Below, piece by piece: positions 15,828 through 48,513 of a stretch of 52,031 bases of DNA. The notes below the pieces were generated by a model. It had not been told where the DNA came from. It did no database searches and saw only the letters and a list, made by a program, of their open reading frames with translations. The DNA lies in assembly GCF_016586355.1 (NCBI RefSeq), contig NZ_BLYI01000038.1, positions 1 to 52,031 on the forward strand, written 5' to 3'. How positions within the stretch are numbered: position 1 is the stretch's first letter; each line of letters starts with the position of its first letter. The position numbers were made by a program, and so were the translations under genes. This DNA comes from Anaerostipes butyraticus. Its GTDB lineage: Bacteria; Bacillota; Clostridia; Lachnospirales; Lachnospiraceae.

Positions 15828-16217
15828 TCAGACGTCCTGTCCGTTACCGCTCTTTTTCTGGCGGATATGATCTTTAATGGCATTAAAACTTTCAGGACTG
15901 ATCACATGTTCCATACGGCAGGCATCCTGCGTTGCAATCTCCGGATCGACGCCCAGGTCGATCAGCATCTGAGATAATACCGTGTGCCGTTCATAGATGG
16001 TCTCTGCGATCTTACGCCCGGATTCCGTAAGGGCAATATGTCCGTCCGTGTCCATAACGATCAACCCTTTTTGCCTTAAATTCTTCATTGCAACACTGAC
16101 GCTGGGTTTTGAAAAATTCAGTTTATGGACGATATCAATAGAACGGACGGTATTTTGCGCCTGCCCCAGAATCAGAATGGTTTCCAGATAATTTTCAGCA
16201 GACTCTTGTACCTTCAA
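15828..16217 (-). CDS. DtxR-family metal-dependent repressor
   Basis: 129 residues. The N-terminal winged helix (ENYLETILILGQ, FSKPSVSVAMKNL) and helical dimerisation domain are present; the C-terminal SH3-like domain is absent, as in MntR-size proteins. Metal ligands H78, C100, E103 and H104 are visible. Cys at this position (Glu in Bacillus MntR) is the DtxR/IdeR pattern and favours iron sensing. The start codon is TTG at 16217 with AAGGAGG upstream. It is the best candidate to bind the GTTAG-N6-CTAAC sites in this window. Confidence 0.9.
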   Translation of the reverse strand: MKVQESAENYLETILILGQAQNTVRSIDIVHKLNFSKPSVSVAMKNLRQKGLIVMDTDGHIALTESGRKIAETIYERHTVLSQMLIDLGVDPEIATQDACRMEHVISPESFNAIKDHIRQKKSGNGQDV

Positions 16218-38254: not shown

Positions 38255-38259
38255 ATATA

Positions 38260-38299
38260 AGACTTCAGATTTGTGATTGCAGGTCTGAAGTCTTTTTTT
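38260..38299 (+). terminator. Terminator after the lipoprotein gene
   Basis: A 10-bp perfect stem AGACTTCAGA/TCTGAAGTCT (38260-38269, 38284-38293) and T7. Confidence 0.92.
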
Positions 38300-38393: not shown

Positions 38394-39353
38394 ATGTTGG
38401 AAATTCAATATAGAGAAATGAAAAACAAAGGGATTGAGATCCTGCGGTGTTTCGGAAAAGATGTTTCCGTGCGTCTTCCGGAGGAAATCAACGGAAAACC
38501 TGTGCTGAAAATCGGGGATTATGCATTCTCCGGGCATAAACGAAAAGAAGATGAGGCGGAGACGATCCGGATCGGAGAGGATCTTTTTGAGGAAGAGAAT
38601 CCGGAGATGATCTGCGGCCCAAGAGTAGAGGAAGTATATCTGCCGGTGCATGTGGAAGAGATTGGACGATATGCTTTTTACGGATGTGTCAATCTGCGGT
38701 GTCTGGGATTTTCAGATTCTCTGCTGAGAACCGGAACCGGTATTTTTACAGGATGCAAGCTTCGGGAAATCCGGCTGGATCTGTATCATGGAGAAAAGAC
38801 GGCGCTGAAAGATGTAGTGGGAGATACCAGATTTCCGGTAACGGTCAGAATCCGGGATCATCAGGACGGCCACGAGGCCTCTCTGTTTTTCCCAGAATAT
38901 TATGAGGAGTCGGTGGAAAATACACCAGCCAGGATCGTGGAACTTCATTTTCACGGAACCGGGTACCAGTACCGCCAGTGCTTTTTCCAGGGAAAACTGG
39001 ATTATGAAAAATACGATGCGCTGTTTCCGGTGGCTTCTGTACAGGAAGATCCGGAGATTGCATGGGAAATTGCCCTGGGAAGGATGCTGCAGCCGTATCG
39101 GATGACGGAGGAACATAAGAAGCGATATCTGGATTACATGAGAGAAAATCTGGATCAGATCCTGGAGCATCTGCTGACGGAGGAAAATCTTCCGGCATTT
39201 CACATGTTTGCGAAAGAGAATGTCTGGACCAGAGAAACGATAGAGGCAGCGATTGAAAAAGCGTCAGCAGGGAAGAAAACCGGAATTTTAAGTGTTCTAA
39301 TGGATGAGCAGAACCGCCGGTTTCCAAGGAAGAAGAAAACATTTGATTTATAG
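38394..39353 (+). CDS. Leucine-rich repeat (BspA-type) protein, first gene of MoxR-VWA unit
   Basis: 319 residues, no signal peptide, so cytosolic. BspA-like LRR_5 repeats lie in the first 120 residues (IGDYAFSG, VEEIGRYAFYGCVNLRCL, TGIFTGC). The C-terminal 150 residues are helical, with no recognised domain. The gene ends 14 nt before the VWA gene, so it opens the five-gene unit. BspA-type LRRs are usually surface adhesins; a cytosolic one beside a MoxR/VWA pair suggests a substrate- or partner-binding adaptor, which is an inference. Confidence 0.8.
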   Translation: MLEIQYREMKNKGIEILRCFGKDVSVRLPEEINGKPVLKIGDYAFSGHKRKEDEAETIRIGEDLFEEENPEMICGPRVEEVYLPVHVEEIGRYAFYGCVNLRCLGFSDSLLRTGTGIFTGCKLREIRLDLYHGEKTALKDVVGDTRFPVTVRIRDHQDGHEASLFFPEYYEESVENTPARIVELHFHGTGYQYRQCFFQGKLDYEKYDALFPVASVQEDPEIAWEIALGRMLQPYRMTEEHKKRYLDYMRENLDQILEHLLTEENLPAFHMFAKENVWTRETIEAAIEKASAGKKTGILSVLMDEQNRRFPRKKKTFDL

Positions 39354-39367
39354 CAGAGGGAAAAACA

Positions 39368-40690
39368 GTGGAAGAAAATATTAATGAGAGTCTCAGCCGG
39401 CTGGGACGGAGGATCCTTGAGATGGCAAGGAATGAATTGTATATCCATATGCGGTTTCTGGATGTAGCTCTGAGCAGTTTTCTGTATGAGCCTGATCCGT
39501 CCATCCGGTGCGTTGCCACCGATGGGATCCATATGTTTTATCATCCGGTCATGCTGGGAAATGTATTTCAGAAAAACCGAATCTGGGTTAACCGAAGCTA
39601 TCTTCATATGGTGCTGCATTGCATTCTGCATCATGTGACGCGGCGAGGAAAGAGAGAAAAAACCTTATGGAATCTGTCCTGCGATATTGCAGTGGAATCC
39701 ATCATTGATCACTGGTATTTAAAATGCGTGCATTTTCCTCAGACGAGACTTCGGAAAGATACGTATGGGCAATTGTCAAAAGCCATGAAAGTGCTGACGG
39801 CGGAAGGCATTTACCGCCAGCTGGCAGGCTGGAATCTGCCTGAGGATAAGGTCAGGGAACTGGCTGCGGAATTTCAGAAAGATGAGCATGGTTACTGGCC
39901 GGACGATCCAAAGCAGGAAATGCATCAGGAAGTAGAAAACCGCTGGAAAAACATCAGTGAAAAGACAGAGACTGATATGGAGACATTTTCCAGTGAGCAG
40001 TCCAGCCAGGCAGGGGATCTGATGGGACAGATCCGGGTAGAAAACAGAGACCGTTATGACTACCGGGAATTTTTGCGGAAGTTTGCGGTAATGCGGGAAG
40101 AAGTGACGGTGGATCCGGATTCTTTCGACTATGTATTTTACAGCTATGGTTTGTCCATGTATGGAAATATGCCCCTGATCGAGCCTCAGGAATGGAAAGA
40201 AGTCAAGAAGGTGCAGGAATTTGCCATTGTGATCGATACTTCCATGTCCTGTTCCGGAGATCTGGTAAAAAAATTTCTGGAGGAAACCTACGATATCTTA
40301 AGTGAAGAAAACAGCTTTTTCCATAAAGTCAATATTCATATCATTCAGTGTGATGAGCAGGTGCAGAATGATCAGAAGATTACAGATGAGAAAGAGCTGA
40401 AAGAATATATGGAACATCTGGAGCTTCGGGGTGAGGGAGGCACGGATTTTCGTCCGGCCTTTGCCTATGTAAATAAGCTGATGGAAACAGGACAATTTCA
40501 GGATTTAAAGGGGCTTATTTATTTTACCGATGGGAAAGGCGTGTATCCAAAGAAAATGCCGCCTTATGAAACTGCCTTTATTTTTATGGAAGAAGAATAT
40601 GAGGATGTGGATGTTCCGCCCTGGGCAATGAAACTGATCGTCACAGGGGAAGAGGATTTGAGTGAAGGAGAACAGGAAAATGAACATTAA
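39368..40690 (+). CDS. VWA-domain protein with degenerate metallopeptidase-like N-terminus
   Basis: 440 residues. The N-terminal domain resembles the putative metallopeptidase region of DUF2201 proteins, but the motif reads HCILHH (84-89): the catalytic Glu of HExxH is Cys, so protease activity is doubtful. The C-terminal VWA domain has a complete MIDAS: DTSMS (290-294), Thr359 and Asp388. VWA proteins partner MoxR ATPases to remodel or metallate targets. The start is GTG 39368. It overlaps the AAA gene by 11 bases. Confidence 0.88.
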   Translation: MEENINESLSRLGRRILEMARNELYIHMRFLDVALSSFLYEPDPSIRCVATDGIHMFYHPVMLGNVFQKNRIWVNRSYLHMVLHCILHHVTRRGKREKTLWNLSCDIAVESIIDHWYLKCVHFPQTRLRKDTYGQLSKAMKVLTAEGIYRQLAGWNLPEDKVRELAAEFQKDEHGYWPDDPKQEMHQEVENRWKNISEKTETDMETFSSEQSSQAGDLMGQIRVENRDRYDYREFLRKFAVMREEVTVDPDSFDYVFYSYGLSMYGNMPLIEPQEWKEVKKVQEFAIVIDTSMSCSGDLVKKFLEETYDILSEENSFFHKVNIHIIQCDEQVQNDQKITDEKELKEYMEHLELRGEGGTDFRPAFAYVNKLMETGQFQDLKGLIYFTDGKGVYPKKMPPYETAFIFMEEEYEDVDVPPWAMKLIVTGEEDLSEGEQENEH

Positions 40691-42179
40691 ACGAGCAAAA
40701 CAGGAAATCAAAGATTCCATTGAAGCATATCTGAAGAAAAATGAATACGGAGAGTATGAGATTCCGTCCATCCGTCAGAGACCGATTCTTTTGATGGGGC
40801 CTCCGGGAATCGGAAAAACACAGATCATGGAGCAGATTGCCAGGGAATGCGGCATTGGGCTGGTTGCCTATACGATCACTCATCATACGAGACAGAGCGC
40901 CATCGGACTTCCGTTTATCAGAGAAAAAGAATATGGCGGGACTACATTTTCTGTTACGGAATATACCATGAGTGAGATCATTGCGTCTGTATATGAGAAG
41001 ATGGAGAAAACAGGGAACAAGGAAGGAATTTTATTCATTGATGAGATTAACTGTGTGTCCGAAACTCTGGCGCCGACCATGCTGCAGTTTCTGCAGTGTA
41101 AAATGTTTGGAAACCAGAAGATACCGGATGGATGGATGATTGTTGCCGCAGGAAATCCGCCGGAGTACAATAAATCTGTCCGGGATTTTGATGTGGTAAC
41201 ACTGGATCGTATTAAAAAGATTGATGTGGAAGCGGATTACGGAGTGTGGAAGGAATATGCTTATCAGGCAGGAATCCATCCGGCTATTCTGGCCTATCTG
41301 GAAATCCGCAAGGAATATTTTTACCGGATGGAGACGACGGTGGATGGAAAGGCATTTGTGACAGCCAGGGGATGGGAAGATTTGTCCCGGCTGATCCAGG
41401 TATATGAAGAGCTGGGAAAGGAAATCGACCGGGAAGTAGTCCATCAGTATCTGCAGCATGGGAAAATTGCCAAGGATTTTGCCAATTATTACGCTCTGTA
41501 TAAGAAATACAAAGAAGATTATGGGATTGAGCGGATTCTGCAGGGACAGTTCCAGCCGGAAACGATCCAGAGACTGAAATTTGCGGCCTTTGATGAAAAG
41601 TTAAGTGTAGTAGAGCTGTTAAATGGAAAATTAAGTGAGTTGTTTAAAAACTGCTGGAAGACGGATACGTATGTAACCCAGCTGTTCTCCTGGCTGAAAC
41701 AGATGAAGGCCAGGGAATCTGTGGAAGAGATTGTAAAAGAAGCAAAAGAAGGGCTGGAACAGAGAAAACAGGCGGAACAGATCGGCAAAGAGGAGGAATA
41801 TATCTTCAAGGATGTGATTGCGGATCTGGAAGGCTACAGCCGGATGCAGCAGAGAGAACATCTGGATTTCCCGGCAGCTTTTGAAAAAATAAGAGAAGAT
41901 TTCCAGGAAAAGACACGAAAGAGAGAACGGGAAATCGAAGAAACCCAGGAAGCTCTTTATCATGCCTTCGAGTTTATGGAAGAGGCCTTTGGAGAGAGTC
42001 AGGAAATGGTAGTCTTTGTAACAGAGTTAAATGTAAATTATTACAGCATTCAGTTTATCAAAGAAAATGGATGCGACAAATATTATCAGTACAACAAAGG
42101 ACTTCTGTTCGATGAACAGCAGGAAGCGATTTCAACGGAGTTAGAAAATCTGAAACAGAAAATGAGGCTGAGTGAATGA
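40680..42179 (+). CDS. MoxR-type AAA+ ATPase
   Basis: 499 residues. Walker A GPPGIGKT (40-47), Walker B LFIDEIN (Asp121, Glu122), and a C-terminal region of long helices with coiled-coil character (about 340-470). Together with the VWA protein it forms a pair like RavA-ViaA, NorQ-NorD or CbbQ-CbbO, which use ATP to open or metallate partner proteins. ATG 40680 follows GGAG by ten bases; an upstream GTG at 40662 overlaps that site. It overlaps the next gene by four bases (ATGA). Confidence 0.88.
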   Translation: MNIKRAKQEIKDSIEAYLKKNEYGEYEIPSIRQRPILLMGPPGIGKTQIMEQIARECGIGLVAYTITHHTRQSAIGLPFIREKEYGGTTFSVTEYTMSEIIASVYEKMEKTGNKEGILFIDEINCVSETLAPTMLQFLQCKMFGNQKIPDGWMIVAAGNPPEYNKSVRDFDVVTLDRIKKIDVEADYGVWKEYAYQAGIHPAILAYLEIRKEYFYRMETTVDGKAFVTARGWEDLSRLIQVYEELGKEIDREVVHQYLQHGKIAKDFANYYALYKKYKEDYGIERILQGQFQPETIQRLKFAAFDEKLSVVELLNGKLSELFKNCWKTDTYVTQLFSWLKQMKARESVEEIVKEAKEGLEQRKQAEQIGKEEEYIFKDVIADLEGYSRMQQREHLDFPAAFEKIREDFQEKTRKREREIEETQEALYHAFEFMEEAFGESQEMVVFVTELNVNYYSIQFIKENGCDKYYQYNKGLLFDEQQEAISTELENLKQKMRLSE

Positions 42180-42955
42180 CGAAAACTGTCAGACAAAGAG
42201 AAAAAGAAGATTATCTTGGAACAATGTATGCCATGAAACGGAAGGATCATCAGATCATAAAGGCAGAGATTGCCAGAGAACTGGGAGTATCTGCCGCAAA
42301 AGTAGACCGGCTGTCCCGGGAACTGACAGAAGAAGGCTATCTGCAGAGGGATGGAAGCAGAGGGCTGTTTCTGACTCCGTTTGGCCTGAGCAAAGGACAG
42401 GAATGGATGGAGAGAAAACGATGCCTGACAGAATTTTTGTGCCTGGTATCCGGAGTGGACCGGAGTCTGGCGCAGGAAAATGCCTGTGCCATAGAACATA
42501 TCCTGGATGAGAGAGTTCTTATGGGAATCCGTATGTTTATGCAAAGCAGGCATACGTATTCTTACACCATGCGCGAAAGTGATCTGAATCTGATGTTCCC
42601 CGAAGGAAAGAGGGAATTTCCGGCGGCTTTCTTTGAAAAAGGGACAAGTCATCCAAGAATCCTGTCAGAGGAATACTGGGACTTTGAGAAGAAAGCAAAG
42701 GCAGTAATCTGCAGGGAGAGTTTTCTGTATCTTTGTCCTGCGGCTGAAAAAACGGAAATCAGAGCGCTGGAGTATTCAGAGAAAGATCGTTGGGAGAGAG
42801 CTGTCAGAGAAAAAAACGGATTTGCAGTTCCTGCAAGAACGCTGCATTGCATTTTAAGACAGAGCGGAAGGATATCAGAAGGAACTGTACCAATCAGGAC
42901 GTTAAAAGAGAACGGACAATGGCATGAATGTATTCTGGCGGTTTCACTGATATGA
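42176..42955 (+). CDS. DtxR-like winged-helix protein 1 in MoxR-VWA unit
   Basis: 259 residues. The first 110 align by eye with DtxR/MntR: EDYLGTMYAM, an HTH (AEIARELGVSAAKVDRLSREL), a wing, and ENACAIEHIL giving the Cys104-x-x-Glu107-His108 metal site. The His of the other site (RH in DtxR) is replaced by RKRC. The C-terminal 140 residues have no family I know. Overlap with the ATPase gene makes it part of the unit rather than a separate regulator; it could regulate it or be a metal-binding client. Confidence 0.75.
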   Translation: MTKTVRQREKEDYLGTMYAMKRKDHQIIKAEIARELGVSAAKVDRLSRELTEEGYLQRDGSRGLFLTPFGLSKGQEWMERKRCLTEFLCLVSGVDRSLAQENACAIEHILDERVLMGIRMFMQSRHTYSYTMRESDLNLMFPEGKREFPAAFFEKGTSHPRILSEEYWDFEKKAKAVICRESFLYLCPAAEKTEIRALEYSEKDRWERAVREKNGFAVPARTLHCILRQSGRISEGTVPIRTLKENGQWHECILAVSLI

Positions 42956-42968
42956 CCGGGAGGATGAA

Positions 42969-43808
42969 ATGGAAAAAAGCAATCACCCTAATGTGTTCTG
43001 GCTGAGATGTCTGCAGGATGTGAAATATCAGACAGAGGAAAAAGGGAAATATAATGAAGCAGAAACAGCCCGGAAGCTGGGAGTTAACCGTTCCACCATA
43101 TCCCGCTGGATGAAAAAAAGCCAGGAGCAGGGGTTTGTTTCAGGAAGTGAAAAGAAACTGACGAAAAAGGGAGAAGAATACCTTCGGTTTTATGATGAAA
43201 TTGAGAAGGATCTGATGGAATATTTTGAGAATCTGGGAGTGGAAGAAGGAAATCGGAGTCAGGCGGCTGCCGGTATGATCGATTCGGTGGATCCGGCAGT
43301 CATTAGAAAAATGTGCCAGAAAGAGAAAAAGCACCTTCGGTATGATAAGATTGGTGAAAATGAAGGAAAAGAAATAAGACAGGTTCCGTATGAACAGCTG
43401 AAAGATTTCCTGAAAGCCGGCACGTATCCGGTGGATTTTGCACTTTACCGGCAGGGAAAAGACAGGCAGACTCTTTCTATGGCGGATATGGGATTTCAGA
43501 AGCCGGGATATCTTGTGTACGAAGAAGACCGGCAGTATCTGGAACTGGCCATACAGGAAATCAGGGCGTATACGAAAGGCGGAGTCCTGCTGTCCGGTCA
43601 TGTTCAGAGTATAAAATACAGAAATCGACAGGATGTGATTGAGGAACTGCCTTTTATGGAATCGAAAGTAAGGATTCCTCTGCAGGCGTTCTGGTTTGAA
43701 ACTTTGTCTGAATGGGAAATGAGCGGGCAGGTCCAGCTGTTTATGACCAGCAGTGTAGGAGAACGAAGAATGCCGGAGAGTTCAGCTGTGCTGATCCTGA
43801 GGTTTTAA
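42969..43808 (+). CDS. DtxR-like winged-helix protein 2 in MoxR-VWA unit
   Basis: 279 residues, a diverged paralogue of the preceding gene: HTH AETARKLGVNRSTISRWMKKS, wing, then the position of the metal motif reads AAAGMIDSVD, so Cys, Glu and His are all lost. The C-terminal halves of the two proteins share a similar layout of strands ending in a hydrophobic strand (SAVLILRF; ILAVSLI). Loss of ligands in one copy suggests a heteromeric or structural role. It starts 13 nt after gene 1 and is followed by a terminator. Confidence 0.7.
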   Translation: MEKSNHPNVFWLRCLQDVKYQTEEKGKYNEAETARKLGVNRSTISRWMKKSQEQGFVSGSEKKLTKKGEEYLRFYDEIEKDLMEYFENLGVEEGNRSQAAAGMIDSVDPAVIRKMCQKEKKHLRYDKIGENEGKEIRQVPYEQLKDFLKAGTYPVDFALYRQGKDRQTLSMADMGFQKPGYLVYEEDRQYLELAIQEIRAYTKGGVLLSGHVQSIKYRNRQDVIEELPFMESKVRIPLQAFWFETLSEWEMSGQVQLFMTSSVGERRMPESSAVLILRF

Positions 43809-43895
43809 TTGAAAACAATTTTCAATAAGAAGAAAAATGTTGCAGGGGTGCAGCAAAAATAAGGAAGACAGGAAAAGAAAGAAAATATTGAGAAA

Positions 43896-43928
43896 AATCC
43901 ATCTTTCAGATGAAAGGTGGATTTTTTT
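43896..43928 (+). terminator. Terminator closing the MoxR-VWA unit
   Basis: A 12-bp stem (43896-43907 with 43912-43923, one GU pair) with an AGAT loop and T7. Confidence 0.92.
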
Positions 43929-43966
43929 ATGATCATTTTTTTAGAAAATCGAGGAAAATCCTGCTG

Positions 43967-44027
43967 TTGACAGGGGAAACTTTTCTATGGTACATGTTAG
44001 ATGCCTTTTGAGTTACACAAAACTAAC
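43967..44027 (+). promoter_or_regulatory. YbaN-ABC operon promoter region with variant DtxR-type operator
   Basis: TTGACA at 43967-43972, with a weak -10 (TACATG, 43991-43996, 18-base spacing). GTTAC-ACAAAA-CTAAC at 44012-44027 matches the GTTAG-N6-CTAAC element at all but one position. A further isolated GTTAG lies at 43996-44000. Confidence 0.5.
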
Positions 44028-44049
44028 CAAAGCGGATAAGGAGATATCT

Positions 44050-44454
44050 ATGAAAAAACAGCCATCACGAATTTTTTGGATTTTGATCGGATTTATAAGC
44101 CTGGGACTGGGAACCGTGGGGATCCTGCTTCCGATTCTGCCGACTGTGCCGTTTTACATGGCGGCGGCCTTTTGCTTTGCAAAAAGTTCCCCAAGACTGC
44201 ATCAGTGGTTTCTTGGAACCGGACTTTATAAAAAACATCTGGAAAGTTTTGCAGAAGAAAAATCAATGACCATGAAAACCAAGTGTTCCATCGTTGGAAC
44301 CGTTACTGTTGTTATGCTGGCCGGATTTCTGGCAATGCACCGCGTGCCGGCAGGCCGGATTTGCATTTTGATCGTCTGGATCTGTCATATCCTGTATTTC
44401 TTTTTCAAGGTGGAAACAAAGAAAACAGGACATAAGGAGGCAGCTTATGATTAA
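44050..44454 (+). CDS. DUF454 (YbaN) family inner-membrane protein
   Basis: 134 residues with three to four membrane segments. [35 protein letters not shown] (quoted in part: [12 protein letters not shown]) is the DUF454/YbaN hallmark, function unknown. ATG 44050 has AAGGAGA upstream; the frame is open back to 43987 but that part covers the operator. It overlaps the ABC gene by eight bases. Confidence 0.85.
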
Positions 44455-46210
44455 GACAAGGCTTCTGGCTTTACTATCCGAAGGGAAAAAATACATCATA
44501 TATCAGGTGCTGTGGCAGTGGGCCGTGCTCCTTGGACAAATCATATCGGTGTTTGCGATTGGAAATCTGGTACAGAAAATCCTGGAAGGCAGAGGAAATA
44601 AGGAAATCGTATTTCTTACATTGTGGATCCTGATTTTAATGACGGCTCTGAGATTTCTGGCAGACCAGATGGCGGCACGAATGTCTTACGCAGCCAGCGC
44701 CGGTGTAAAAAGGATTCTGAGAGACAAGATTTATGAAAAGCTTCTGAAACTGGGCGCATCCTACCGGGAACGAATTTCATCAGCAGAGGCGGTGCAGATG
44801 AGCGTGGAAGGCGTAGAACAGCTGGAGACTTATTTTGGACGGTATCTGCCTCAGTTATTTTACAGTATACTGGCGCCTGTCACACTTTTTTTCTGCCTGA
44901 AGCCCATCAGTTTAAAAGCAAGTGCGGTTTTGCTGATCTGTGTCCCTTTGATTCCTATATCCATCGTGGCGGTACAGAAAATCGCAAAAAGACTTCTCCA
45001 GCGTTACTGGGGAATGTATACACAGCTGGGAGACAGCTTCCTGGAAAATCTCCAGGGGATGACGACACTGAAAATTTATCAGGCGGATGAACAGAAAGCG
45101 GCTGAAATGGATGAAGAAGCCAGCCGGTTCCGAAAGATTACGATGAAAGTTCTGACCATGCAGTTAAATTCCACCAGTGTGATGGATATCATCGCCTATG
45201 GCGGCGCGGCAGCAGGAATGATTCTGGCGGTCAGAGAGTTTATGGCAGGAAATGTATCTTTCGGCGGAGCCCTGGTCATAATCCTGCTGGCGGCAGAATT
45301 TTTCATTCCCCTGCGTCTGCTGGGATCCTTTTTTCACATCGCGATGAATGGAATGGCGGCCAGTGATAAGATTTTTGCCCTTCTGGATCAGGAAGAACCC
45401 AGACAGGGGACCGAAGATTTCCCGGAAGATGATTTTGGCATTCATATAAAAAATGTGAGCTTTTCTTATGATGGGAAGCGGCAAATCCTGAAAGATATTT
45501 CCATGGAATTTCCGTCTGGAAGCTTCATTTCCCTGGTGGGAGAATCCGGATGCGGGAAAAGCACCATTGCAGGAATTCTGGCCGGAAAAAATAAGAATGA
45601 TCAAGGGGAGGTCTGCATTGGACAGACTCCGCTTGAGAACATCAGGGAAGAGGAAAGGATGAAGCACATCACCCTGGTAACACATAACAGTTATCTGTTC
45701 CAGGGAACTGTGGAGGAAAATCTCAGAATGGCAAAGCCGGACGCGGAATTGTCTGAAATGCGGGAAGCGCTGCAGGCAGTGAATCTGCTGGACTTTTTAA
45801 ATGATCAGGACGGCCTGCAGACAAAACTGACGGAAAAAGCAGAAAATTTCTCCGGAGGGCAGCGTCAGAGGCTGGCGCTGGCACGAGCTTTGCTTCACGA
45901 TACCCCGATTTATATTTTTGATGAAGCGGCGTCGAATATTGATGCCGAAAGCGAAGAAATGATCATGGATGTGATCCGGAAACTGGCAGAAACAAAAACA
46001 GTGCTGCTGATTTCCCACAGACTGTCCAATGTAACAGAATGTGACCGGATTTATATGATGGAAGGCGGTCAGATAAAAGAACAGGGAACCCATGATCAGC
46101 TGATTTCCAGGGAAGGAAAATACAAAATGTTATATCAGGAACAGAGAGAACTGGAACAATACGTCCGGATACCGGATGCAGGAGAGGAGGCACAGGATGC
46201 ATCACAATAG
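44447..46210 (+). CDS. ABC transporter, fused permease-ATPase (first half)
   Basis: 587 residues: six-helix permease domain (about 1-310) and ATPase domain with Walker [10 protein letters not shown], signature [16 protein letters not shown] and Walker [10 protein letters not shown]. With the next gene it forms a heterodimeric type IV exporter-fold transporter resembling CydDC or IrtAB. IrtAB-type proteins import siderophores; the DtxR-type operator upstream would suit iron or haem traffic, but the substrate is not readable. Confidence 0.9.
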
Positions 46211-47858
46211 AAGAAGTGCCATAAAAATCATGAGCCGTCTGATTGTGCTGGTCAGACCGCTGATTCATCTGATGGTTCTGGCGGTGCTGCTGGGAAGCGC
46301 AGGATATCTGTGCGCCATTTTCCTTACGATCGCAGCTGCGTACGGCTTGTTAAGAGAACTGGCAGGGATAACGGCCGGAAGTATTTTTATCGGTATGGGA
46401 GTTATGGCGGTTATGAGGGGAATCCTTCATTATGCAGAACAATACTGCAATCATTATATTGCGTTTCGTCTGCTTGCCATCATCCGGCATAAGGTATTTG
46501 CAGCACTGCGCAGATTATGTCCGGCGAAACTGGAAGGCAGGGAAAAAGGAAATCTGATTTCCATTATTACTTCGGATATTGAACTGCTGGAAGTATTTTA
46601 TGCTCATACAATTTCACCGGTTTGTATCGCGGTTCTTACATCTCTGATCATGATCATCTTTATCGGACGATACCACTGGGCGGCGGGAGCATTTGCAGCC
46701 GCAGCCTATATCATAGTGGGAGCAGTGATTCCTTTATGGAATGGGAAAAAGGGAGCTGCCACAGGCATGGAGTTTCGTGACGGACTGGGACATCTCAACA
46801 GTTTTGTTCTGGATTCCCTTCACGGAATCGATGAAACCATCCAATACGGCCAGGGAAGGAAACGGAAACAGGAGATGATGGAGCGGTCCAGAAATCTCGG
46901 AAACCTGCAGAAACATTTAAATCGTATGGAAGCAGGACAGAAAGCGGTTACAAACCTGGTGATTCTGGCGGCCTCGTTTCTTATGCTGTTTATGACATGG
47001 AACCTGTATCAGACGGGACAGCTTCGTTTTGAAGGTATGGTGCTTGTTGCGACTGCCATGATGGGGTCATTTGGACCGGCTGTAGCTTTATCGAATCTGT
47101 CCAATAACCTTCATCAGACGCTGGCATGCGGAGAACGGGTTCTTTCTCTGCTGGAAGAAGAGCCGGCGGTGGAAGAAATTCCGGACAGAGAAGAAGCGAA
47201 GATGGATTTTAGTGGAGCCAGTGCGGAGAATGTTACATTTTCTTATGGGGAAGGGGAGACTCTAAAGGACTGTACGCTTGAAATACCGAAGGGAAAGGTT
47301 GTAGGGATTTATGGAAAAAGCGGTTCCGGAAAATCAACGCTATTAAAACTTCTGATGCGGTTTTGGGAGACAGATCAGGGAGAAATCCGGATATCCGGAC
47401 AAAAGATCAGGGAAATACCGACGCGGAGGCTTCGGAATACTCAGTCTTATGTAACACAGGAAACACAGATATTCCATGACACGATTGCAGGAAATATCTC
47501 GGTCGGAAAACCAGGGGCATCCAGAGAAGAAATTATAGAAGCAGCTAAAAAGGCGTCTCTCCATAAATTTATTGAGTCACTTCCCAATGGCTATGATACG
47601 AATGCAGGAGAGCTGGGGGATTGTTTATCCGGCGGAGAAAAACAAAGGATCGGAATTGCCAGGGCGTTCCTTCATGACGCCCCGATGATGCTTCTGGACG
47701 AGCCTACCAGCAATCTGGATTCGTTAAATGAAGGAATGATTTTAAAGTCACTGGAGAAGGAACGGAATCAGAGAACTGTGGTTCTTGTATCTCACAGACA
47801 GTCTACGATTAGTTTTGCGGATACTATTTATCAGATGAAGAGCGGGAGGATGTCTTAG
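46197..47858 (+). CDS. ABC transporter, fused permease-ATPase (second half)
   Basis: 553 residues. Six-helix permease (about 15-300), then ATPase with Walker A GKSGSGKST, signature LSGGEKQRIGIARAFL and Walker B MMLLDEPTS. ATG 46197 has GAGGAGG upstream; an in-frame ATG at 46176 precedes that site. It overlaps its partner gene by 14 bases. In the first ATPase the Walker B Glu is followed by AAS and here by PTS, as is usual in asymmetric pairs. Confidence 0.9.
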   Translation: MHHNRRSAIKIMSRLIVLVRPLIHLMVLAVLLGSAGYLCAIFLTIAAAYGLLRELAGITAGSIFIGMGVMAVMRGILHYAEQYCNHYIAFRLLAIIRHKVFAALRRLCPAKLEGREKGNLISIITSDIELLEVFYAHTISPVCIAVLTSLIMIIFIGRYHWAAGAFAAAAYIIVGAVIPLWNGKKGAATGMEFRDGLGHLNSFVLDSLHGIDETIQYGQGRKRKQEMMERSRNLGNLQKHLNRMEAGQKAVTNLVILAASFLMLFMTWNLYQTGQLRFEGMVLVATAMMGSFGPAVALSNLSNNLHQTLACGERVLSLLEEEPAVEEIPDREEAKMDFSGASAENVTFSYGEGETLKDCTLEIPKGKVVGIYGKSGSGKSTLLKLLMRFWETDQGEIRISGQKIREIPTRRLRNTQSYVTQETQIFHDTIAGNISVGKPGASREEIIEAAKKASLHKFIESLPNGYDTNAGELGDCLSGGEKQRIGIARAFLHDAPMMLLDEPTSNLDSLNEGMILKSLEKERNQRTVVLVSHRQSTISFADTIYQMKSGRMS

Positions 47859-47884
47859 AAAAACTTGACAGAAGGAGAAAAAAC

Positions 47885-48268
47885 ATGACATTTTTAAATA
47901 TGATACTGCCATGGTTTGTTACACTTTGCATCGTTTTATTATCACTGAATTATCCTGTACGAAAATATTGCCAGAGACGCTGCCTGGCATCCCGGGATAT
48001 ATCTTACAAGGGATACCGGTTTTTAAGAAAAAGCCACAGAGTATTAGGAATCCTGACGATCATCCTTACCTTTCTTCACTGCCGGCTGTCCTCTGCGGGT
48101 CCCGGCATGAATATAGGAAAAATCAGCTTTTTGATTTTACTGCTGATGTTTATCATACATTTATTTCGTAATACAATGAAAAAGAAGTGGATTATTCTTC
48201 ATCGGATGCTGGCAGTACTGCTATGGGTAACGATCATCGTACATATCGTACAGGAAGTATGGATGTAA
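47885..48268 (+). CDS. Small ferric-reductase-like (cytochrome b-type) membrane protein
   Basis: 127 residues with about four membrane helices. Paired His residues inside helices (SHRVLGILTIILTFLH and HLFRN, then LHRMLAVLLW and VHIVQE) resemble the bis-haem core of ferric reductase-like transmembrane domains. No FAD/NAD domain is attached. It could reduce a ferric ligand or pass electrons for the upstream transporter. AAGGAG precedes ATG 47885. Assigned by His pattern only. Confidence 0.65.
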   Translation: MTFLNMILPWFVTLCIVLLSLNYPVRKYCQRRCLASRDISYKGYRFLRKSHRVLGILTIILTFLHCRLSSAGPGMNIGKISFLILLLMFIIHLFRNTMKKKWIILHRMLAVLLWVTIIVHIVQEVWM

Positions 48269-48279
48269 AAAAGTGCAGG

Positions 48280-48311
48280 GCGGAGAATTCCTTTTGGAGT
48301 TCTCTGCTTTG
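48280..48311 (+). terminator. Probable terminator of the YbaN-ABC operon
   Basis: A 12-bp stem (48280-48291 with 48296-48307, two GU pairs) with a TTTT loop; the following T run is short (TTT). Confidence 0.6.
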
Positions 48312-48369
48312 TGAAATTTCAGGCGAAAAAAGGAATAGAATAAGAAAATAAAAAAATATGAAAAAAAGG

Positions 48370-48428: not shown

Positions 48429-48501
48429 GCGATAGTGGCGTAGCTGGTAACGCGCAACCTTGCCAAGGTTGAGACCGCGGGTTCGAACCCCGTCTATCGC
48501 T
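48429..48501 (+). tRNA. tRNA-Gly(GCC)
   Basis: 73 nt. Acceptor GCGATAG pairs with CTATCGC, anticodon loop TTGCCAA (GCC), T loop TTCGAAC, discriminator T as usual for Gly; CCA not encoded. Confidence 0.97.
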
Positions 48502-48513
48502 CTATTACAAATC

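Follow-up and report, generated by a model that had tools for sequence, protein, structure and literature searches.

Five tightly spaced genes at positions 38394-43808 of the window, the 52,031-nt stretch of Anaerostipes butyraticus DNA analyzed here (positions 1-52,031 of contig NZ_BLYI01000038.1, assembly GCF_016586355.1), are very probably the junction of two separate units. One is a conserved triad encoding a leucine-rich repeat (LRR) protein, a von Willebrand factor A (VWA) protein and an AAA+ ATPase, and the other is a block that begins with two genes for DtxR-like proteins, here called DX1 and DX2. For the locus as a whole, the explanation that we favor as the probable one combines a triad motor, whose LRR protein carries a conserved tail, with a separate heme/metal regulator block. 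A preliminary description of this DNA had treated the five genes as one candidate system. Its five forward-strand open reading frames (ORFs) and their tight spacing agreed with the ORF list and the sequence, and its domain names (LRR, VWA, AAA and, for DX1, DtxR-like) with Pfam scans. The five genes are as follows.

38394-39353, forward strand: LRR gene, 319 amino acids (a.a.), Pfam LRR_5 at 4.7e-9.
39368-40690, forward strand: VWA gene, GTG start, 14-nt gap after the LRR gene, Pfam DUF2201_N and DUF2201.
40680-42179, forward strand: ATPase gene, ATG start, 11-nt overlap with the VWA gene, Pfam AAA/AAA_5.
42176-42955, forward strand: DX1, 4-nt overlap with the ATPase gene, Pfam and NCBIfam matches, MntR in the PDB at 1.5e-9.
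42969-43808, forward strand: DX2, 13-nt gap after DX1, DtxR-like helix-turn-helix and dimer region with a C-terminal NEAT-like domain.

The LRR-VWA-AAA+ triad is a conserved three-gene system of Clostridia. VWA relatives were found in 79 of 150 Lachnospiraceae genomes, the source genome included (E ≤ 1e-5), and 38 of the 40 family loci that were fetched (best matches first, then hand-picked, in stretches of up to 18 kb) had an LRR relative, usually in the order LRR-VWA-AAA. Across the class, 39 of 391 genomes had VWA matches (1e-10) and 20 loci were fetched; an LRR relative adjoined the pair in nine of the 11 strong or intermediate loci from other families, and four weak loci (L127-L130) were AAA-VWA pairs without an LRR gene. 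In the phylum, 7 of 398 genomes matched (1e-30), and in each of the three that lie outside the class the pair adjoins an LRR relative. When named genomes were scanned with the ATPase, at least 585 stretches were confirmed; the best 80 of them, which were kept, came nearly all from Clostridia or their relatives, with one from Paenibacillaceae. Among 145 loci that were re-annotated so that labelled ORFs took precedence, an LRR gene lay at most four genes from the ATPase in 128, in the order LRR-VWA-AAA (114 loci), VWA-AAA-LRR (6) or another order (8), and was sometimes doubled. Since the 145 loci are mostly best matches, these fractions do not reflect random sampling.

At the level of genomes, strong LRR matches occurred in 52 of the 149 other family genomes, all 52 of which also have the VWA gene (hypergeometric P 4.6e-21, uncorrected for relatedness); the LRR cut-off, E 1.6e-46, was placed at a gap in the list after the list had been viewed, and some of the 52 matches cover part of the model. 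In one genome (G119) the LRR and VWA genes are on separate contigs, so the partnership is independent of adjacency. Three results argue against so strict a partnership: two loci with VWA relatives of intermediate similarity (L120 and L121, family f14) have no LRR gene, 17 of the 145 loci have none within four genes (in three of them an LRR gene lies farther away, and a contig end clearly truncates few of the 17), and 26 of the 78 other VWA genomes gave no strong LRR match. In some of those 26 (L070, L071), the pair is accompanied by a diverged LRR gene. Genome surveys thus bore out the VWA-ATPase pair of the general MoxR/VWA kind, together with the LRR gene, as a conserved unit across Clostridia. 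No description of an LRR-VWA-MoxR triad was found in the literature searched, which comprised open-licence papers.

The DX genes do not share this conservation. They stand beside the triad in none of the 40 family loci and in 2 of the 145 loci, both from congeners, and the five genes, adjacent in this genome, are not a conserved unit. Between the triad (end 42179) and a tRNA-Gly (start 48429) lies a block of ~6.2 kb, which holds DX1, DX2, a DUF454 gene, two ABC genes and a 127-a.a. ORF with a sub-threshold ferric-reductase match.

43987-47858, forward strand: genes for a DUF454 protein and two ABC exporters, part of the block, by Pfam.
48429-48502, forward strand: tRNA-Gly (gcc), right border of the block.

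In two congeners (L147 and L151), a tRNA-Gly with the window's anticodon starts 79 and 116 bp after the ATPase gene; in L147, tRNA-Tyr and tRNA-Leu lie beyond it, as in the window, and a DNA comparison left about 42132-48361 of the window without a match. These near-empty sites mark the run from DX1 to the 127-a.a. ORF as a block lacking there in those relatives, and that none of the 40 family loci has it next to the triad favors gain of the block by this group over loss by the relatives. A third congener (L143) keeps most of the block with both DX genes shortened; past the initial 240 bases of DX1, the block is 77-81% identical, compared with 87% in the triad stretch. In a fourth (L142) DX2 is in two pieces and parts of the block are kept. 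The triad ORFs are whole in both. In another congener (G539), the DX pair lies about 350 kb from the triad.

The alternative that all five genes form one system, with DX1 and DX2 as clients or sensors of the ATPase, draws on their tight spacing on one strand, on the overlap of the DX1 start with the ATPase stop, and on the same adjacency in L142 and L143. Two of these facts do weigh against a junction: the DX-bearing arrangement is common, at least partly, to L142 and L143, and the close spacing of the triad and DX1 permits co-transcription here. However, 143 of 145 loci have no DX gene beside the triad, and DX2 is not associated with the VWA gene (among 12 genomes with DX2, 5 also carry the VWA gene, on another contig or at a distance of 384 kb; Fisher p 0.55). 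The block is also absent in L147 and L151, and its DX genes are broken or shortened in L142 and L143, where the triad is whole. On these grounds DX1 and DX2 were rejected as partners or clients of the ATPase, and we regard a single five-gene system as highly improbable.

The LRR protein consists of a BspA-type solenoid (residues about 1-130), a beta module (about 149-187), a helical part (204-309) and a tail (310-319) ending in KKKTFDL, and a signal peptide is not evident by reading. In its predicted structure (mean predicted local distance difference test score, pLDDT, 95.7; last block, 81), the last ten residues lie outside any helix or strand, after the last helix. In a Foldseek search with this model, BspA-type LRR chains were matched (5 at E ≤ 0.001), and the helical half had no convincing match. 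Pfam scans of 58 LRR relatives gave LRR_5 in 57, LRR_8 in 8 and one stray RFC1. Complete LRR proteins span 264-841 a.a. in Clostridia and reach 1177 a.a. outside the class. Over 38 triads, mean pairwise identity was 31.7% for the LRR protein, 48.1% for the VWA protein and 54.7% for the ATPase, and the LRR value was the lowest of the three in 36 of 36 within-genus pairs. The rows of the alignments were chosen by hand, mostly omitting odd lengths (A1, 40 of 41; A2, 38 of 39; A3, 31 of 40; A4, 58 of 71; A5, 64 of 78). The earlier proposal that the LRR protein recognizes the target is plausible because it is the fastest-diverging component. In two loci (L113 and L115), one VWA-ATPase pair is accompanied by two LRR genes; those in L115 lie downstream, and each encodes more than 800 a.a.

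On this diverging body, the C-terminal end is conserved.

39321-39350, forward strand: codons of the last 10 LRR residues, with an FxL-COOH tail (here FDL) conserved in relatives.

The pattern [FYW]-x-[LFIM] stands directly before the stop in 114 of 130 LRR copies, most commonly as FEL (39) or FDL (24), and in 100 of 115 non-redundant ones. The latter number was reached by removing sequences that contain X or run off a contig end (127 distinct) and then those of ≥70% identity. The same ending occurs in 20 of 1218 neighboring ORFs, which are mechanical ORFs of ≥100 a.a. and not annotated genes, in 2 of 144 VWA proteins and in 1 of 146 ATPases. It was present in 34 of 38 sequences of the first alignment set and in 62 of 73 loci that lie outside this set, are <70% identical to it and were fetched after the motif had been noticed. 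Two or more Lys/Arg residues directly precede the tail in 91 of 115. Two of the three out-of-class LRR proteins (1174 and 1177 a.a.) end in YEL. In the 58-row alignment, mean conservation compared over eight stretches peaked in the last three columns (0.58) and was lowest in the helical part at 253-309 (0.32), with single columns elsewhere exceeding those of the tail. That the end is conserved while the folded body diverges suggests a binding motif. On the other side of the balance, the pattern was defined after the first 38 sequences had been viewed, one of the three out-of-class proteins lacks the ending, the exact ending is missing in 15 of 115, and only 69 of 115 tails have an acidic middle residue.

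In the VWA protein, both Pfam matches are well above the gathering scores (DUF2201_N, 9.9e-12, 45.5 against 23.2 bits; DUF2201, 8.2e-14, 52.2 against 26.4 bits). The full metal ion-dependent adhesion site (MIDAS) that had been noted earlier was confirmed: D290-x-S292-x-S294, T359 and D388 are invariant in 64 of 64 relatives, and so are H80, H84, H89, E110, D172 and H174 of the N-terminal domain. The preliminary description had also reported a broken HExxH motif, HCILHH. The motif is indeed broken, but it lies at H80-MVL-H84 (H80xxxH84xxxxH89), and HCILHH starts one His later. Position 81, where HExxH has its catalytic Glu, is Met in the window and M, S, V, L, I, T, A or C, never Glu, in 64 of 64 relatives. 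The four classical DUF2201 relatives inspected all have an intact HExxH. An invariant His-rich site together with the absent Glu makes it likely, as read from sequence, that the DUF2201_N domain here is a metal-binding pseudo-peptidase; against this, one of the 40 rows of alignment A1 (L060) keeps HExxH. The predicted structure (mean pLDDT 84) matches VWA domains generally, best those of complement C2 and collagen VI; among PDB matches, NorD of the NorQD complexes ranked 34 and 46, and the ligand-bound MDN1 MIDAS ranked 37. No effector domain follows the VWA domain of the window protein in Pfam, and its last 14 residues are of low confidence.

The ATPase is a MoxR-type AAA+ protein and the most conserved member of the triad. 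It has the motifs GPPGIGKT, DEINC and AGNPPEYNKSVR and, by reading, a C-terminal helical extension, and its longest ORF starts at a GTG at 40662. The Walker A and B residues G43, G45, K46, T47 and D121, E122 are invariant in the 31 rows of alignment A3. Pfam AAA (3.1e-9) and AAA_5 (1.9e-7) are above cut-off; bpMoxR (PF20030, 8.4e-4) and AAA_3 (PF07726, E 0.06), which we take to be a MoxR-type model, are below it. RavA-ViaA likewise joins a MoxR ATPase to a VWA partner but, unlike the triad, is not known to have an LRR partner. The classical DUF2201 pairs (L127-L130) also set a VWA relative beside an AAA partner, but in the order AAA-VWA, with no LRR gene seen beside them and with HExxH intact. 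NorQ/NorD, a MoxR AAA+/VWA metal-insertion chaperone, shares with the triad the AAA+ protein, the VWA domain with a full MIDAS and the structural match, the latter behind many other VWA domains; the triad differs in having DUF2201_N before the VWA domain, no linked client found, and a third, LRR component with a conserved tail. The motor is of a known kind, and the combination of a tailed LRR protein with a pseudo-peptidase VWA protein is a variant that was not found in the searched literature.

How MoxR/VWA motors choose and move their targets is poorly understood. For NorQD, two reports describe a VWA domain seated on the AAA+ ring, its finger inserted into the pore, propose that ATP use twists the VWA against the N-terminal domain, and suggest that the MIDAS takes its sixth ligand from the target protein (PMC13036017, PMC9976466). 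By analogy, the AAA+ ring and the VWA protein of the triad may form a motor of the NorQ/NorD kind, in which the cytosolic LRR protein would be captured at the VWA MIDAS by its FxL-COOH tail, through an acidic residue or the free carboxylate. Movement powered by ATP would then remodel, reset or release the LRR protein, whose fast-changing solenoid surface may recognize a lineage-specific target, and DUF2201_N would act as a metal-binding, non-peptidase docking domain. In the neighboring block, DX1 would sense metal and DX2 would sense heme through its cytosolic NEAT-like domain, both controlling transporter or heme genes. We think it rather probable that the tail contacts the VWA protein or the ATPase; that it does so specifically at the MIDAS, as the NorQD analogy suggests, is quite possible but held more tentatively. 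Doubtful on balance, though far-reaching, is the fullest form of the proposal. The triad would then be a new class of ATP-driven receptor system, in which FxL-COOH tethers a cytosolic LRR receptor to the VWA protein as a ligand of the MIDAS metal and the AAA+ protein resets or releases the receptor after it meets its fast-changing target, and to which the block adds a cytosolic DtxR-NEAT heme sensor. The triad is common in Lachnospiraceae and their relatives, and a likely partner encoded beside the motor, with a short conserved tail, makes recognition testable with a ten-residue peptide.

The same components could serve other ends. If the triad were an anti-phage or conflict system with the LRR protein as invader sensor, it would join the MoxR-vWA ternary conflict systems, whose third components include VMAP, iSTAND, FtsH, beta-propeller and TERNS3 (PMC7159879, PMC8195603). 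The common MoxR-vWA core with a third component, such systems having been described (PMC7159879), the fast divergence of that component, the scattered presence and the occasional doubling of LRR genes would all fit. However, the third component here is a BspA-type LRR protein, no effector domain is recognized by Pfam on the window VWA protein, and the groups named for the ternary systems are mainly multicellular (PMC7159879, PMC8195603), whereas the triad occurs in Clostridia and a small number of other members of the phylum. An FtsH or beta-propeller third component was not found among the 58 LRR proteins, which hit LRR models and the stray RFC1 only, the structural model matching LRR chains; VMAP, iSTAND and TERNS3 had no Pfam match in the 58 either, with the existence of such Pfam models unchecked. 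PADLOC returned nothing for the LRR and VWA proteins and, for the rest, only weak matches of the AAA, CARF/Csa3, mad and other helix-turn-helix types (best 5.2e-6), and the triad neighbors are varied housekeeping and transport genes. In viral contigs, 41 pattern stretches yielded 1 weak relative of 21% identity, and a phage-borne system was rejected as a candidate. A conflict role is therefore, in our view, unlikely.

A role as a maturation chaperone, in metal insertion or complex assembly as for NorQD or RavA-ViaA, with an unlinked enzyme as client and the LRR protein as adaptor, is a serious possibility that nevertheless falls short of probable. The invariant His/acidic site in the VWA N-terminal domain would suit it, as would a gene for a putative MntP-like membrane protein, named from its sequence, at most four genes from the ATPase in 6 of 140 loci and at differing positions (L036, L037, L038, L041, L057 and L154). 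The engine resembles NorQD, with NorD among the structural matches and the twisting model given in PMC13036017. On the other hand, a fixed client would not favor a fast-changing adaptor, and no conserved client gene adjoins the triad: neighbor clusters over 41 and 140 loci belonged for the most part to common families (transport, HAD, response regulator, housekeeping), with the largest cluster present in 19 of 140 loci, and a conserved client beside the triad was rejected for that reason. The tail might instead be a degron or pore-threading signal, in which case the ATPase would pull on the FxL end and so unfold or strip the LRR protein, and the VWA protein would do no more than plug the ring. 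A hydrophobic end preceded by a run rich in Lys/Arg (91 of 115) is what such a signal could look like, but no protease family is prominent among the neighbors, and the VWA finger of NorQD fills the pore (PMC13036017) and leaves little room; we judge threading improbable. Over these alternatives we retain the reading of a triad motor that acts on its own tailed LRR partner.

The two proteins of the block are DtxR-like to different degrees. DX1 passes both Pfam models of MntR/DtxR regulators, Fe_dep_repress (4.7e-7, winged helix) and Fe_dep_repr_C (2.6e-8, dimerisation domain), and has a C-terminal extension; the C-x-x-E-H motif ascribed to it earlier is there (C104-x-x-E107-H108) and is kept in 3 of 3 (alignment A7). 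DX2 alone is weakly DtxR-like (Fe_dep_repress, 0.02) with a weak NEAT match, but when 14 DX2 proteins were combined in a profile, its N-terminal ~100 residues matched MntR structures at 5.5e-12, and the DtxR-likeness of both DX1 and DX2 thus survives profile comparison. In this profile, the positions that we take to be metal ligands are replaced. The two had been called paralogues. Both are DtxR-like, but they are barely alike pairwise, their best BLASTP match spanning 27 helix-turn-helix residues.

The DX2 profile also matches a NEAT chain (3sik, 6.4e-6) over part of the C-terminal rest, and a pairwise profile comparison with NEAT-type domains encoded by neighbors gave 93.6% over 71 columns, in the first half of the domain only. 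This C-terminal domain has conserved SMA[D/N]xGF and MPES motifs, and DX2 has no signal peptide by reading. Unlike MntR/DtxR regulators and NEAT heme proteins, DX2 joins both parts in one protein. DX2-type matches were found in 16 of 200 family genomes, the source genome included; the one in G091 looked, when inspected, like a plain DtxR gene. Pfam scans of 15 neighbors from 10 DX2 loci identified NEAT-FIVAR (L253, L262), Shp (L263), DUF454 beside an FtsX permease (L256), ABC exporter genes (L251, L259, L260, L264) and an ABC fragment (L252); L254 had FIVAR/Big_2 only, L251 also had a NEAT match below cut-off, and three small neighbors in L253 and L254 had no Pfam match. MntR and NEAT matches in one profile, beside heme and ABC genes, make a heme reading of DX2 likely, and DX2 is probably heme-responsive as judged from these profiles and neighbors. 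Less favorable to this reading are the NEAT score, which stays under the Pfam gathering score (30.6 against 32.8 bits, with 6 of 14 proteins at E ≤ 0.01 and a best value of 5.1e-7), and the last part of the domain, which has no alignment with NEAT. A DtxR-NEAT regulator was likewise not described in the open-licence papers searched. If the reading is true, the DtxR-like/NEAT-like fusion would bring a cell-surface heme-capture domain into the cytosol as a sensor.

Three sequence features accompany these genes.

38259-38294, forward strand: terminator-like stem at the upstream boundary of the triad, called by the scanner as a 16-bp stem followed by T5 after the preceding gene.
43808-43826, strand not assigned: perfect 8-3-8 inverted repeat ATTGAAAACAATTTTCAAT, a candidate operator that overlaps the DX2 stop and precedes the transporter genes.
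About 43895-43924, forward strand: hairpin followed by T's, 3' of the five genes, read by eye.

The scan returned as many terminator-like sites as shuffled sequences (5 against 4.6). The terminator that had been placed at the end of the five genes was not called by the scanner on the forward strand, but the hairpin and T's read by eye at about 43895-43924 do stand there. The ATTGAAAACAATTTTCAAT repeat is the only perfect copy in the genome and has 15 near copies, with 16 forward matches against 3 for the reversed control. Another DtxR-like ORF lies in the window at 15861-16208 on the minus strand, and two further DtxR-like genes of the same genome (L144, 6191-6953; L145, 5706-6224) lie close behind ABC exporter-sized gene pairs, one gene of which was confirmed by Pfam.

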